Below are positions 1,735 through 21,577 of a DNA stretch of 64,000 bases, in pieces. Origin of the DNA: Sphingomonas jejuensis (lineage in GTDB: Bacteria > Pseudomonadota > Alphaproteobacteria > Sphingomonadales > Sphingomonadaceae). Positions within the stretch are counted from its first letter, which is position 1. Every line of letters begins with the position of its first letter. Under the pieces are notes generated by a model, which saw only the letters and a program-made list of their open reading frames with translations, was not told where the DNA came from and made no database searches. The stretch spans positions 1,240,001-1,304,000 of the forward strand of contig NZ_JAATJE010000001.1 of the NCBI RefSeq assembly GCF_011927695.1. The letters run 5' to 3'. The translations under genes and the position numbers were made by a program.

Positions 1735-3720
1735 CTAGCGCATTGATGCGGCCAGGAACCCGTCGACATCTTGAAGCATGCGCTGACGCGCGGTGTTGCT
1801 GACAAGGTAATGATCTAGCCCATCGAATTCTAGATAAACCGGATTTCTGCCTGCCGTTTGCAACGAACGCTGCATCAAGCGGGACTGTCCGACGCCGACA
1901 TTCTGATCAAGCGTGCCATGCACCAGCATCACGGGAGCCCGGATGCGCTCGGCGTGCCGCGCAGGTGATCCTTCCGCGATGTGCGGACCGCGGCCGATGA
2001 AAGCATCCACACGAGCGGAGTTGGTGAAGCCGCGTGCCTCGCTGCGCAGCACCTCCAGATCGGTGACCGGCGCAACGGCGACGATCGCCTTGAACAGATC
2101 CGGGTCGAGCACCGCCGATTGCAATGCGGCGTAGCCACCGTAACTCCAACCCATAATCGCAAGGCGGTTTGCGTCGGCTATACCCTGCGATATCAGCCAT
2201 CGTCCCCCGTCGTTGACGTCTCCGATGGCTGTTCGCCAGGATCTAAATCCATTGTTCTGGAACCACGAGTCGCCATAGCCCGTCGAACCGCGAAAGTTCG
2301 GCTGCAGAACGACATACCCGCGCGCAGCCAAGAATTGCGACAGCCAGTCAAACCCCCACTCGTCCCGCGAACCCGGTCCGCCATGCGGAAGCACAATCGC
2401 CGGGAGGTCACGTCCATCGCTTCCCGGCGGCAACGTCAAGTAACCGGGTATTTGGGTGCCGTCTGCCGCAGGAAATGTGACATGCTGCACCCGGGCCAAC
2501 GCCACGCCTTCGAGTTGCGGACGCGAAGGCATCACTTCGATGAGTTCACGCTGAGACTTCTTGTAAAGGAAATACCGTCCGGGATCATTGTCGCTGCCGG
2601 CAAAAAGCAGCAACGATGACTCATCTGCGCTTGCACCGACGAACGATACGATCGGACTGTTTGGCAATGCGCGGCCAAGTGATTGGTTCAGTATCTTCAA
2701 CTCAGGATCGAACATCTCCGCTTGTCGTCGATCCGTGACGTAAGTCGCCCCGACGATCCTGGCGTTTCGCCCGGTCTGGATCACACCGGAAATGTCAACC
2801 TGCGGATGCGAGAGGACCATCTCGCGCCGCCCGGTACCATCCAGTGCGATCCGCCACAAAGCCTGGCGCCCGTCAATCTTCTCCAGTCCATAGACCATGT
2901 TGCTGGTGGGATCGACCGCCAAGGGGTTGAAGCCGGTTTCATCATCCAGGTCATAGGTCGCAAGAGGCCGCCAGCTACCGCCATCAGCGGGACGGTACTG
3001 GTAGGTCAGGGTTCTGCCGATAATGCCATCTCGTTCTTCAAAGATGCCACGAACCCTAATGCGGCCTTGCCCATCGCTGATATATTCAGCCAGGTTCCGG
3101 ACAGGCTGTTCGACCACCGTCCGTCGCCCTGAGACGACATCGACACGGTCGACACCAAGCCCTCGACGACTTTCGACCATGCGCGTTCCGCTACCGCCCT
3201 CGGGAATGTACTGCCGCGTCATGAGGATCGCGCCGTTGCCCGTGCCATTCAGAAGATCGAGTACACGTCCGCCGTTCTGCATCAATCCAAGTGCGTTGGC
3301 TCCAGGGCGCTGACTGAGCAGTTGAACATCGCTGCCATCGCGATTGAAAGAAACCACACGCGTGAAGCTGAGCCTGTCCGGCCCCACGATGAGGTGTATG
3401 TTGCAGATGATCCGCGTGTCGGTGGGCCATGCGCAACTGATAACGCGACCATTGGCGCCATCCAGCCGCATCACCGAACGCGGTGCTCCGCCCTCAATGG
3501 GATTAGCGACTTGCACGATCGTCCCGTCGCCAGTGGAGCCCGGAACAACCATCGCCACCTGCGAACCGTCAGGTGACAGGCTGATGTGTTCGATATGTTC
3601 GCGCGCGCCGAAGCGCTCGGCGTCCCGTGCGATGGTGTTCTCAGATTGCGCCACCACGGGCGCAATCGTGATTGAGACAGCCCAAGCGCCAACGCCGATC
3701 AACTTGACAAATCTAATCAC
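1735..3720 (-). CDS. Secreted S9-family (prolyl oligopeptidase-like) serine peptidase
   Basis: A 661-residue exported peptidase. The start is a GTG at 3720 with GGAAG just upstream, and the first 24 residues form a signal peptide ending near PVVAQ. The middle is a WD/beta-propeller-like region (HISLSPDGSQVAMV, then repeated strands), and the C-terminal third is an alpha/beta hydrolase. The triad is visible: Ser526 in GWSYGGY, Asp605 in GTLDQN and His637 in GLDHY; the oxyanion region is LPHGGPGSRDEW. This layout fits acylaminoacyl-peptidase/dipeptidyl-peptidase relatives that trim short peptides in the periplasm. The substrate is not predictable from sequence. It is convergent with rpsD and divergent from the putrescine operon, with no operon partner. 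Confidence 0.92.
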   Translation of the reverse strand: MIRFVKLIGVGAWAVSITIAPVVAQSENTIARDAERFGAREHIEHISLSPDGSQVAMVVPGSTGDGTIVQVANPIEGGAPRSVMRLDGANGRVISCAWPTDTRIICNIHLIVGPDRLSFTRVVSFNRDGSDVQLLSQRPGANALGLMQNGGRVLDLLNGTGNGAILMTRQYIPEGGSGTRMVESRRGLGVDRVDVVSGRRTVVEQPVRNLAEYISDGQGRIRVRGIFEERDGIIGRTLTYQYRPADGGSWRPLATYDLDDETGFNPLAVDPTSNMVYGLEKIDGRQALWRIALDGTGRREMVLSHPQVDISGVIQTGRNARIVGATYVTDRRQAEMFDPELKILNQSLGRALPNSPIVSFVGASADESSLLLFAGSDNDPGRYFLYKKSQRELIEVMPSRPQLEGVALARVQHVTFPAADGTQIPGYLTLPPGSDGRDLPAIVLPHGGPGSRDEWGFDWLSQFLAARGYVVLQPNFRGSTGYGDSWFQNNGFRSWRTAIGDVNDGGRWLISQGIADANRLAIMGWSYGGYAALQSAVLDPDLFKAIVAVAPVTDLEVLRSEARGFTNSARVDAFIGRGPHIAEGSPARHAERIRAPVMLVHGTLDQNVGVGQSRLMQRSLQTAGRNPVYLEFDGLDHYLVSNTARQRMLQDVDGFLAASMR

Positions 3721-3878
3721 CTTCCCCCCCCAAGGTATAATCTAGAACTAGTCTATCGGTATTTTTTTAGAAAGTAAGTTGCCGCGATGCTCAGAGGCTT
3801 CAGCGGACGCTGACAGCATTGAGGTCTCTGAAGAGGATCGCCTTGCGTCAAACTCCCGTGCTCGGCATGAGCCACGGC

Positions 3879-17803: not shown

Positions 17804-19093
17804 TCAGGCCGGCTCCATCACCGACAGGATGTCGGCAACCTCGGCGACGGCGAAGGCGGTGTAGCTGTCACCGATGGCATAGGGCAGCAGCACCCGCCGC
17901 CCGCGCAGCAGCCCGCCGCAGCTGTAGGTGACGTTCGGGACATAGCCGCCGCGCTGCTCGTTGCTCGGGAACAGCAGCGGCGACGGCGTGCGCGCGATGA
18001 CGCGGGACGGATCGTCGCGATCGAGCAGGCAGGCACCGATGCAGTACCCGCGCACCATGCCGACGCCGTGAGTAAAGACCAGCCAGCCTTCGTCGATCTC
18101 GATCGGCGATCCGCAATTGCCGATCTGCACGAACTCCCAGGGGTATTTGGGCCGCAGGATGGGCGCACCCGTTTCCCAATGGTGCAGGTCGTCGGACAGA
18201 AGCAGCCAGATATTCTCGCTGTCCTGACGACCCAGCATCGCGAATTTTCCGCCGATCCGCCGTGGAAACAGCGCCATGCCCTTGTACGCCGTCATCGCCC
18301 CGGTCAGCGCGCGCATGTCCACCGTGCGCAGGTCCACGCCGCGCATCATCTCCTGCCGGGCCTCGTGGCCGTCGAAGGCGGTATAGGTGCCGATGACGCT
18401 TCGCGTGCCGTCATCGTCGGTGAAGTTCACCAGCCGCAGATCCTCGATCCCGTTGCGCTGGCTCGGCAGCACGGGGAAGATCACCGTTTCCGACACATCC
18501 TGGCTGTCGGCGCAGATCAGGCGCACCCAGTTGTCATCATGGGGCTCCACGCGCGGCGGCACGCCGTGCGGGCTCGCCGGATCGATCTCCAGCCGGTCGC
18601 CCGGTCCCCACACGCCGCTGCGGAAGGTGACGGAGGAGATATGTCCCTCCCCGATCCCGCGCAGAGAGAGGATGAAGCGGGTCTCGTCGTCGCGCGGCGG
18701 CGTGTCCTCCGGGATCGTGACGATGCTGGGATTGAACAGCGCGGCCGACTCGAATGCATATTCCTGGCTGAAATAGGCCCCGATCAGCAGCTGCTCGTGA
18801 TGGTCGCGCGCGCGATGCACGTCGATCTCGCCGCGCACCTCCTCGAACCGGCGCAGCAGCACTGCCTCCAGGTTGCGGTGCCGCGGGTGCATGGCGTCCG
18901 CCAGCAGCCGGTGCATGCGCTGATGCATCGCGTCGTCGAGCGCGAGCAGCCGGTCCACCACCGCCTGCGCCCGGGTCGGGCGATCCTTCGCGAACGCTTC
19001 GGGATAGCCGAAGCTGAACGGCCGGATCACGGTGCGCGACGCATCCGGATGAAGCGTGACGTCAAGCTTGGTGAAAACGTCGGCGGCGTTCAT
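17804..19093 (-). CDS. Glycoside hydrolase family 130 phosphorylase/hydrolase
   Basis: A 429-residue five-bladed beta-propeller enzyme. GH130 members act on beta-mannosides, mostly by phosphorolysis (mannosylglucose, beta-1,2-mannobiose). Landmarks are FNPSIVTIPED, SFSVTFRSG-like SSVTFRSGVWGPGDRLE, EDLRLVNF, YTAFDGHEA, NIWLLLSDDLHHWETGAPILRP, IGNCGSPIEIDEGWLVFTHGVG and GGYVPNVTYSCGGLLRGRRVLLPYAIGDSYTAFAV. The first 110 residues, rich in charged helices, are an N-terminal extension found in one GH130 subgroup. There is no signal peptide, so it acts in the cytoplasm. It stands alone between the MaoC operon and tRNA-Val; no sugar transporter is adjacent. Confidence 0.85.
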   Translation of the reverse strand: MNAADVFTKLDVTLHPDASRTVIRPFSFGYPEAFAKDRPTRAQAVVDRLLALDDAMHQRMHRLLADAMHPRHRNLEAVLLRRFEEVRGEIDVHRARDHHEQLLIGAYFSQEYAFESAALFNPSIVTIPEDTPPRDDETRFILSLRGIGEGHISSVTFRSGVWGPGDRLEIDPASPHGVPPRVEPHDDNWVRLICADSQDVSETVIFPVLPSQRNGIEDLRLVNFTDDDGTRSVIGTYTAFDGHEARQEMMRGVDLRTVDMRALTGAMTAYKGMALFPRRIGGKFAMLGRQDSENIWLLLSDDLHHWETGAPILRPKYPWEFVQIGNCGSPIEIDEGWLVFTHGVGMVRGYCIGACLLDRDDPSRVIARTPSPLLFPSNEQRGGYVPNVTYSCGGLLRGRRVLLPYAIGDSYTAFAVAEVADILSVMEPA

Positions 19094-19800: not shown

Positions 19801-20616
19801 ATGACAGGCAGCAGCCACGCCGATCCGGGATGCGTGCTCATCACGGTGTCGCATGCCGGGCGGGCGGAGCCGGCGGACATGGCCGCCATGCTCCGCGTGC
19901 CGCCCGACCGGCTGCTGCCGCTGGAGGATCGCCACGTCGATCGCCTGACCGTTGCGGCCGAGGAAGCCGGCGTGCCGGTCATCCGGGCCGACCGGCCGCG
20001 CTCCTGGATCGATCTCAACCGCCGGGAGGACGAGCTCGACCCCGCGATGGTGGCGGGCGGCTGGCCGGACGGTCCGCTCAACGCGACCGCGAAGATGCTG
20101 GGGGGGCTGGGGCTGATCCCGCGCCGCCTTGCCGGGATCGGCGACATCTGGCGCGCGCCGCTTGCCGCGGATCATGTCCGGCGCCGCATCCGCGAGGATT
20201 ACCGCCCCTTCCACGAAGCGGTGGCCGCAACCCTCCGCGCCATGCGGGACCGGCACGGCAGGGCGGTGCTGATCGACCTTCATTCCATGCCTGCGGCCCT
20301 GCCGCAGATGGTCGTCGGCGACCTGTTCGGACGGTCCGCGCCGCGGATGCTGGTGGACCGTGTCCTCGCCTGCGGGCGGGATCACGGCCTTACCGTCGCC
20401 CGCAACAAGCCTTATGCGGGCGGCCACATCGTTGAGCGGCACGGCGATCCGCGCCAGGGCGTCGCGGCGGTCCAGGTGGAGCTCAGCCGGCGCCTTTACC
20501 TGCAGCCGGACCTGTCCACCCCCGACGAGGCCGGCGTGGCGGCGATGGCGCGCCTGGTCGCCGATCTCGCCGCGCTTGCGGCGGAGGACGCCGACCACGC
20601 GGTCGCGGCCGAGTAG
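19801..20616 (+). CDS. N-formylglutamate amidohydrolase-family enzyme
   Basis: A 271-residue FGase-family zinc hydrolase. Motifs: LITVSHAGRAEP near the N-terminus (metal His), DRHVDRL, IRADRPRSWIDLNRREDELDP, VLIDLHSMPA (metal site) and NKPYAGGHIVERHGDP. True members (HutG) release glutamate from N-formylglutamate in histidine breakdown, but many genomic relatives without hut neighbours have unknown substrates. No hut gene lies here, so the exact reaction is uncertain. The ATG at 19801 has weak Shine-Dalgarno support (acgacgag). Downstream, on the other strand, lies a candidate small RNA. Confidence 0.82.
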   Translation: MTGSSHADPGCVLITVSHAGRAEPADMAAMLRVPPDRLLPLEDRHVDRLTVAAEEAGVPVIRADRPRSWIDLNRREDELDPAMVAGGWPDGPLNATAKMLGGLGLIPRRLAGIGDIWRAPLAADHVRRRIREDYRPFHEAVAATLRAMRDRHGRAVLIDLHSMPAALPQMVVGDLFGRSAPRMLVDRVLACGRDHGLTVARNKPYAGGHIVERHGDPRQGVAAVQVELSRRLYLQPDLSTPDEAGVAAMARLVADLAALAAEDADHAVAAE

Positions 20617-20620
20617 CGCT

Positions 20621-20656
20621 CAAAGAAAAAGCCACCCCGGGCAAGCCCGGAGTGGC
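20621..20656 (-). terminator. Rho-independent terminator of the small RNA
   Basis: A stem of about 11-12 bp (20645-20656 with 20631-20642, one G-T pair) followed on the minus strand by TTTTTCTTT. It is a strong terminator for minus-strand transcription. Confidence 0.8.
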
Positions 20657-20726
20657 CAAGGTTCAGGGAGGAACATGTCCCGGAGGACATGCCGACGCGG
20701 GCGAAAGGGGGGGAACGCCCGGCGTC
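20622..20726 (-). ncRNA. Candidate small regulatory RNA with C-rich hairpin loops (cuckoo-RNA-like)
   Basis: Between two genes on opposite strands, the minus strand shows a complete small-RNA unit of about 105 bases. A promoter lies at 20733-20760. Three hairpins follow: stem 20716-20720 with 20699-20703 and a loop of seven consecutive C; a 7-bp stem (20685-20691 with 20674-20680) around loop TCCG; and stem GTTC/GAAC (20671-20674 with 20661-20664) around loop CTCCCT. A GC-rich terminator with a T-run ends it. C-rich CCUCC-like loops that could mask ribosome binding sites are the hallmark of alphaproteobacterial cuckoo RNAs. Expression and family membership are inferred. A 19-codon frame on the opposite strand is judged spurious. 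Confidence 0.5.
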
Positions 20727-20732
20727 CACTCT

Positions 20733-20760
20733 AAAATAATCGGGGCGGCCTTTGGTTCAA
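20733..20760 (-). promoter_or_regulatory. Candidate sigma-70 promoter of the small RNA
   Basis: On the minus strand TTGAAC (20760-20755) is separated by 16 bases from TATTTT (20738-20733). Each box matches four of six consensus bases. It would start transcription near 20726. Confidence 0.45.
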
Positions 20761-20768
20761 GCCGCCCC
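20742..20768 (-). terminator. Hairpin after sapC, possible terminator
   Basis: An 8-bp perfect GC stem (20761-20768 with 20742-20749) and an 11-base loop, 12 bases after the sapC stop, followed on the minus strand by a moderately T-rich run. It overlaps the small-RNA promoter. Confidence 0.5.
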
Positions 20769-20779
20769 GCCGCAATTTT

Positions 20780-21577
20780 TCAACCGTTGGCCGGTGCGGG
20801 AATGGTCGCGCTGGTCTGTTCGACGGTGGGTCCCCTGCCCAATTCCTGCTGGCGGGCGAAGATGTCGCGCATCAGCCCGAGCGAGAACAGGTGGGCGTAC
20901 AGCAGCGGCAGCATGCCGTTCTGCGACATCTTGCGCAGCTGGTCGCCGCGCAGGTCGCGCAGCTTCTGCTCGTCGACCATGCGGAAACCGCGATAGATGA
21001 AGGGCTGCTCGATGCCCTGCTGCTGGATCGACACCTCGCCGTCCATCAGCAGGCCGCTCTCGTTCAGCTCCTTCATGAACAGCTGGGTCTGTTGCCCCGC
21101 CTGCTCGAACTGCTCGCAGAACTGCAGGATCTGCTTGGTCACCTCGGACGGCTGGTCACCGTCGAACAGCTGGTCGCCCGGCCCCTCGGCCGCGACCGCG
21201 CCGGCGGTCGGATCGAAGCACAAGGACAGCTCGTCCGTGTCGGGGCGAAGCTTGGCGAGCATCCACGGATACCGGCGAATATAGGCGGGCACATAGGCCT
21301 CGCGCGTCAGCCGGCCATTCTCGTCGACGAAGGTGTTGACGCCTTCGTTCAGGCCCATCAGCGCCAACGGAACGCTGCCGTCGCCGCCCGAAAAGATGAT
21401 CGGGTAGAAGCGCTGCGCCATCGCGAACTCGTCGGTGGTCAGCGGAATGGCATGCTGCGTCGACAGGAAGGGCGCGCTGTCCATCTGCTTGTTGAACCAG
21501 CCCTTGTGCTGGCTCGACGACAGCGGGACGAGGTCCTGGTAGAACAGGGGCAGGCTTTGTTGCGGCGCGCTCGCCAT
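20780..21577 (-). CDS. SapC-family protein
   Basis: A 265-residue protein with the SapC domain through most of its length: LFYQDLVPLSSSQHKGWF, then HAIPLTTDEFAMAQRFYPIIFS, PLALMGLNEGVNTFVDENG, YVPAYIRRYPWMLA and LCFDPT, then LFDGDQPSEVTKQILQFCEQFEQ and FRMVDEQKLRDL. The family is named for an S-layer gene cluster in Campylobacter. In sphingomonads and Caulobacter, SapC genes usually sit beside TonB receptors and tryptophan halogenases; here it is on its own. There is no signal peptide. Biochemical function is unknown. Confidence 0.85.
   Translation of the reverse strand: MASAPQQSLPLFYQDLVPLSSSQHKGWFNKQMDSAPFLSTQHAIPLTTDEFAMAQRFYPIIFSGGDGSVPLALMGLNEGVNTFVDENGRLTREAYVPAYIRRYPWMLAKLRPDTDELSLCFDPTAGAVAAEGPGDQLFDGDQPSEVTKQILQFCEQFEQAGQQTQLFMKELNESGLLMDGEVSIQQQGIEQPFIYRGFRMVDEQKLRDLRGDQLRKMSQNGMLPLLYAHLFSLGLMRDIFARQQELGRGPTVEQTSATIPAPANG

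Follow-up and report, generated by a model that had tools for sequence, protein, structure and literature searches.

A predicted alphaR8 small RNA gene between sapC and the N-formylglutamate amidohydrolase gene of Sphingomonas jejuensis

In a 64,000-nucleotide (nt) stretch of the genome of Sphingomonas jejuensis (contig NZ_JAATJE010000001.1, positions 1,240,001 to 1,304,000, hereafter the window), the DNA between sapC and the gene for N-formylglutamate amidohydrolase (FGase) very probably holds a real small regulatory RNA (sRNA) gene, at 20726-20622 on the minus strand, as the local version of a known alphaproteobacterial family. With high probability, the element is the alphaR8 sRNA (MmgR/SisA), in the copy found at the FGase locus; by sequence and gene order, it is the positional orthologue of MmgR in Sinorhizobium and SisA in Caulobacter. 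The alphaR8 family has already been described in print, as have its locus and its mode of action (PMC12559287, PMC7143759, PMC6563040). The main message is an ordinary one, namely a known sRNA family in its usual place.

Identity and conservation of the predicted sRNA gene

Over some 140 bases between sapC and the FGase gene, the minus strand exhibits a promoter-like pair of boxes and two strong hairpins, after which a linker rich in C leads to an intrinsic terminator. The alphaR8 family is defined by a single-stranded 10-mer, UUUCCUCCCU, located downstream of a hairpin and accompanied by a Rho-independent terminator, and in most species one copy stands beside the FGase gene, the Caulobacter copy being sisA (PMC12559287). 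In the window, (i) GUUCCUCCCU, matching the 10-mer at 9/10 bases, lies between the second hairpin and the terminator, (ii) the intrinsic terminator has a covarying stem, and (iii) an FGase gene (PF05013) adjoins the sRNA. SisA likewise is FGase-linked, with the core UUUCCUCCCU downstream of a hairpin, an intrinsic terminator and a single dominant copy at that place, and has siblings of the same family, SisB-D, in Caulobacter crescentus (PMC12559287). In a whole-window Rfam scan, no family reached its cutoff at the sRNA locus; in a permissive scan, RF00519 (suhB/MmgR) scored 34.4 bits (expectation value, E, 9.5e-6) with the whole model aligned and UUCCUCCCU in register, the other Rfam matches at the locus being weak (sX13, 21.2 bits; SorX, 17.7 bits). 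Within its clan, suhB was the best match there, one lower-scoring clan match being omitted, unnamed, from the output. MmgR of Sinorhizobium meliloti (77 nt, RF00519) shares the Rfam family, by similarity, and the core with the window sRNA, from which it differs in being shorter and controlled by NtrC/AniA (PMC7143759). The parts of the locus, in window positions, are the following:

20622..20726, minus strand: predicted alphaR8 sRNA of about 105 nt, its start placed some 7 nt past the -10 box
20755..20760, minus strand: -35 box TTGAAC, read from the sequence, its position kept in orthologues
20733..20738, minus strand: -10 box TATTTT, spacer of 16 nt, read from the sequence and conserved in orthologues
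20741..20769, minus strand: terminator-like hairpin 3' of sapC, 11 pairs, loop of 7, with arms covarying in Sphingomonadaceae
20694..20726, minus strand: hairpin 1, loop 20704-20715 (UUCCCCCCCUUU; seven C at 20707-20713), from fold and arm covariation
20674..20691, minus strand: hairpin 2, loop UCCG at 20681-20684, from fold and arm covariation
20656..20673, minus strand: core UUCCUCCCUGAACCUUGG, which marks the family and is the putative anti-Shine-Dalgarno seed, with the final two bases paired in the terminator; CCUCCCU at 20671-20665
20630..20657, minus strand: stem of the intrinsic terminator with 12 pairs, followed by a T-rich tail reaching 20622, from covariation
20780..21577, minus strand: SapC (PF07277), next gene upstream of the sRNA and in the same orientation
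19801..20616, plus strand: FGase (PF05013), neighbour convergent with the sRNA

A covariance model built from 23 Sphingomonadaceae copies of the sRNA matched 214 of the 249 Sphingomonadaceae genomes at E <= 1e-5 (206/236 good-quality genomes; 86/96 genera), once per genome in 213 of them and twice in the remaining one, and the window sRNA is single-copy in its own genome. Most sampled members of the family would then carry this conserved anti-Shine-Dalgarno regulator, of which the window copy was overlooked by the Rfam cutoff. At E <= 1e-6, the same model recovered each of the FGase-linked copies taken from sister families (13/13, including two near-identical pairs); when applied to 11 Sphingomonadaceae copies away from FGase, it gave three matches at E 0.035 to 0.11 and none at E <= 1 for the other eight. 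RF00519 itself was matched at E <= 0.01 in 56 of 59 relatives (own genome included), above the cutoff in 48, and at class level at E <= 1e-5 in 52/115 genomes, with FGase nearby in 26 of the 30 class-level loci examined, i.e., the best RF00519 matches.

The counterparts of the window RNA in the loci fetched from relatives lie between sapC and FGase. Of 99 orthologous Sphingomonadaceae loci, 94 have sapC as the upstream gene in the orientation of the sRNA, and 97 have a convergent FGase gene. This set was obtained from 113 loci by removal of seven second copies of included genomes and then of the 7/106 missed by the core search (L085, L092, L095, L104, L115, L140, L152), six of which show a variant or shifted core, while L085 is truncated where its contig stops. 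Across the 99 orthologues, the core CCTCCCTGAACCTTGGCC hardly varies; CCUCCCUGAACC is nearly fixed in Sphingomonadaceae copies and the bases preceding it vary. An exact search with a 22-nt core in named genomes returned 84 stretches, of which those bearing a genus name come from Sphingomonas, Novosphingobium, Qipengyuania, Erythrobacter, Citromicrobium, Rhizorhabdus, Sphingobium and similar genera, all of the Sphingomonadales; the name Sphingomonadaceae is used here for the family on this basis.

The minus strand over 113 nt folds at -59.1 kcal/mol (z = -4.74), a stability equalled by none of 200 dinucleotide shuffles, and both hairpins precede the core in the folds of 99/99 orthologues. Lack of covariation in the stems had been named beforehand as an outcome that would speak against the sRNA; this was examined by a swap test, in which the stem arms of each genome were paired with each other or with arms from other genomes (5000 permutations). 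All three stems covary, the native mean being reached in 0/5000 permutations each time, with native against swapped energies of -20.4 and -12.2 kcal/mol for stem 1, -11.7 and -6.2 kcal/mol for stem 2, and -24.0 and -20.1 kcal/mol for stem 3 (the terminator). When the arms of stem 1 were set by the C-run instead of the fold, the values were -21.0 and -13.0 (98 loci, 0/5000), and control arms taken upstream show a small native advantage too (-9.7 against -9.2, 226/5000). Independently of this test, RNAalifold found that both partners had changed at 12/18 pairs of stems 2 and 3; stem 1 was not recovered by RNAalifold on the MAFFT alignment because its arms were misaligned, and the swap test was used instead.

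The first-pass annotation, made on the sequence alone, had placed the promoter boxes TTGAAC-N16-TATTTT, hairpins 1 and 2 and the terminator where they are listed above, on the minus strand, and had named both neighbours, now borne out by Pfam matches (PF07277, PF05013); its view of a separate sRNA, equipped with a promoter, a terminator and an anti-Shine-Dalgarno stretch of its own, is supported by homology and conservation. It also described three hairpins with exposed loops, of which the C-run of hairpin 1 and the UCCG of hairpin 2 hold and the third, presenting CTCCCT, does not: rather than being held in a conserved loop, this motif belongs to the single-stranded linker. One fold of the window RNA contains a 4-bp mini-stem, GUUC-CUCCCU-GAAC. 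Across the 97/99 orthologues with an exact CTCCCT, the GAAC side is fixed in 96/97 while the opposite side drifts, so that the three inner pairs can form in just 42/97, and a conserved mini-hairpin presenting CUCCCU was rejected on these grounds.

The genome of S. jejuensis holds a second RF00519 match (L028, C1:1695976-1696052, minus strand), above the cutoff at 42.8 bits and about 60 nt long, with a core, AUCCUCUCCUAAAC, different from that of the window; no FGase neighbour was found for this copy. Cores of the AUCCUCUCCUAAAC type occur also in other Sphingomonadaceae genomes (L047, L051, L053, L060, L061, L062). A further relative is known from Sphingopyxis granuli TFA, a member of the same bacterial order as S. 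jejuensis. This RNA, SuhB (61 nt), shares the broad family with the window sRNA and blocks thnR translation in an Hfq-dependent manner (PMC6563040); by length, it would correspond better to the second copy than to the 105-nt window RNA.

The C-rich loop of hairpin 1 and the nested promoter

In the 99 Sphingomonadaceae loci, the loop of hairpin 1 contains CCC without exception and CCCC in 74, its types being CnTTTC (36), CnTCA[TC] (59) and other (4), a count biased by the fact that these loci were found with a DNA query or a model (R1) both covering loop 1. In the 84 named loci picked by the 22-nt core alone, with the loop disregarded and with partial overlap with the 99, CCC is present in 83 (CnTTTC 39, CnTCA[TC] 37, other 8). 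A C-run in loop 1 is found in 2/13 sister-family loci and, under a slightly wider rule, in 2/29 loci from other orders. Being frequent in Sphingomonadaceae and rare in sister families and other orders, the C-run is therefore a feature of Sphingomonadaceae, and the C-rich loop of hairpin 1 appears from these comparisons as a lineage-specific addition, possibly serving as a second pairing site or seed. Among the papers listed on sphingomonad sRNAs and Hfq, FGase-linked sRNAs and the SuhB of Sphingopyxis, no description of it was seen; papers on alphaR8 phylogeny may already describe it. The loop offers a testable case of an old sRNA gaining a second pairing site.

A generic promoter scan called 0 promoters at its threshold of 9, the window pair having 8/12 consensus matches by our own count. 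A TTGAAA/TATATT-like pair with at least 9/12 matches was found at the right place in 86/99 orthologues as against 5/990 shuffled sequences, the consensus being derived from the very orthologues that were scored, and the conserved promoter looks sigma-70-like. Its -35 box lies at the tip of the 11-bp hairpin that follows sapC, and the -10 box within the T-rich tail of that hairpin. In the 96 loci whose promoter scored 8 or more, the arms that flank the -35 box pair at -12.5 when both come from one genome and at -9.0 when swapped (0/5000), and -20 kcal/mol or better is reached by 21/96 native as against 129/9120 swapped combinations; with the arm geometry displaced by 28 nt, the values are -7.8 for native and -7.0 for swapped arms. 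The window copy, at -23.9, is among the stronger ones. On these figures, the nested promoter/terminator organisation would be present in about one fifth to one half of the genomes, a compact arrangement worth checking.

Taken jointly, these elements allow a tentative scenario, which we regard as possible though rather unlikely in full, whereby an ancestral alphaR8 RNA became a two-seed regulator in Sphingomonadaceae, combining the CCUCCCU core with a second, conserved CnUUUC/CnUCAU loop on a covarying hairpin, a loop aimed at G-rich ribosome-binding sites that would let the RNA reach more mRNAs or other ones, and whereby the promoter nested in the sapC terminator hairpin ties transcription of the sRNA to sapC termination.

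Predicted mode of action and candidate targets

The sRNA would probably be transcribed from its own sigma-70-type promoter into a transcript ending at its own terminator, whose single-stranded core UUCCUCCCUGAACC may pair in trans with the Shine-Dalgarno regions of target mRNAs, probably with the assistance of Hfq; such pairing would block ribosome binding and thereby repress translation. This scheme, together with putative targets among TonB-dependent receptors and uptake or carbon-metabolism genes, is proposed by homology with characterised relatives. For SisA, pairing of the core to mRNA upstream of the start codon was shown by compensatory changes, targets include TonB-dependent receptors, other transporters and metabolic genes, and CrfA acts as a sponge (PMC12559287); SuhB binds the thnR 5' untranslated region, with dependence on Hfq (PMC6563040). 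Hfq is encoded in the genome of S. jejuensis, by a single 164-aa frame that joins two Sm domains (L194 1480-1974, plus strand; C1:977905-978336). The suggestion in the first-pass annotation of a role under growth arrest finds no support at the window locus, and the relatives are uneven in this respect: SuhB levels are high during fast growth (PMC6563040), SisA, which controls the feast-to-famine switch in Caulobacter, is made almost constitutively (PMC12559287), and MmgR accumulates on entering stationary phase (PMC7143759).

Pairing with candidate targets was computed for start sites chosen by a simple rule, which left 25/27 TonB-dependent receptors with a usable start. Receptor start regions differed from those of 41 control genes in a first pairing test (p 0.022 for the core, 0.0034 for loop 1) and paired better than those of 272 other genes (p 0.0028 and 0.00018, respectively); in the latter test, an even stronger difference was given by the 16S-tail control (p 9e-7), and other C-rich probes scored as well, namely loop 2 (p 0.008) and the paralogue core (p 0.00013). 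Shuffled probes reached the receptor difference in 1/200 cases for the core and 23/200 for loop 1. Extended complements of the core (14-mer, at most 2 mismatches) occur at 11 places in the genome, compared with 8 for the reversed control; the 11 include the locus of the sRNA and two places (L159, L165) just upstream of plausible ATG starts. This single 14-mer pattern search of the own genome returned no clear target and no sponge, CrfA-like or other. At L165 (C2:467075-467088, minus strand), GGTTCTGGGGGGAA stands directly before the ATG of a small gene and is complementary to both the core (2 mismatches) and loop 1; the gene resembles that of integration host factor alpha. Within the window, the start of the gene at 1737-3741 on the minus strand is preceded by TTGGGGGGGGAAG, complementary to loop 1 at a computed -21.4 kcal/mol, and may represent a target.

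Weighing the assignment

Several observations weigh against assignment to alphaR8. At 34.4 bits, the window copy misses the RF00519 gathering cutoff of 41 bits, as do the two Sphingomonadaceae copies scanned (L013, L014), whereas 5/5 scanned FGase-linked sister-family copies pass it. The first U of the alphaR8 10-mer is replaced by G, and hairpin 2 is strong, whereas the alphaR8 description says weak. Among the Sphingomonadaceae genomes, 35/249 have no model match at E <= 1e-5. Finally, the receptor signal vanishes once Shine-Dalgarno strength is regressed out, with residual p 0.67 for the core and 0.14 for loop 1. The window RNA further differs from SisA in the bases after the 10-mer, which are GAACCUUGG, and in the 5' C-loop hairpin, which sets the start of the core about 54 nt from the predicted start of the RNA, as compared with a CrfA-protected region at about residues 33-45 in SisA.

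The cuckoo RNAs (CcsR) of Rhodobacter carry C-rich, anti-Shine-Dalgarno-like loops, as does the window RNA with its anti-Shine-Dalgarno motif. On this likeness, the first-pass annotation had offered a cuckoo RNA, repressing translation through such loops, or a new family. The reported context of those RNAs consists of a co-transcribed DUF1127 gene, four sRNAs in a row (R. sphaeroides) and an RpoH promoter (PMC10253847), while the gene upstream of the window RNA is SapC with no DUF1127 neighbour, and the RNA is single-copy instead of forming a tandem of homologues. Because synteny, core and Rfam similarity place the RNA in alphaR8, it is neither a cuckoo RNA, a reading we hold highly improbable, nor a member of a new family, which was rejected on homology and synteny. 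An AbcR-like (alphar15) RNA would bring a similar layout, as AbcR1/2 have three stem-loops and two anti-Shine-Dalgarno-like motifs, to which the C-rich loop 1 and the core could be compared; that identity is very unlikely, given that AbcR1/2 differ in locus and sequence, suhB and not an AbcR model being the best clan match, the genomic context being FGase and not lsrB, and the core and the bases downstream of it following alphaR8.

Two other explanations would do away with an independent sRNA altogether. The RNA could be the 3' part of the sapC mRNA, where it would form a second terminator region and from which processing would free it, in keeping with the upstream, same-strand sapC of 94/99 loci. 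Against this stand the terminator-like hairpin separating sapC from the RNA, the conservation of the sRNA promoter, and the linkage to FGase, which is kept in sister families and in further orders, at loci for which a sapC neighbour was not found or not sought, so that we give this origin little credence. A small protein gene is hardly credible at all: a 77-aa GTG frame (20729-20496) is open in the window, and 72/99 orthologues have an open frame of 30 codons or more across the region, which is not exceptional in GC-rich DNA, yet the frame has no Pfam match, the spacing between -10 box and core is spread over the three phases (43, 33 and 20 of 96), and variation follows the RNA stems. The alphaR8 sRNA of the FGase locus thus remains the preferred identity. 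Elsewhere in the window, 17804-19093 on the minus strand encodes a glycoside hydrolase family 130 protein (PF04041).
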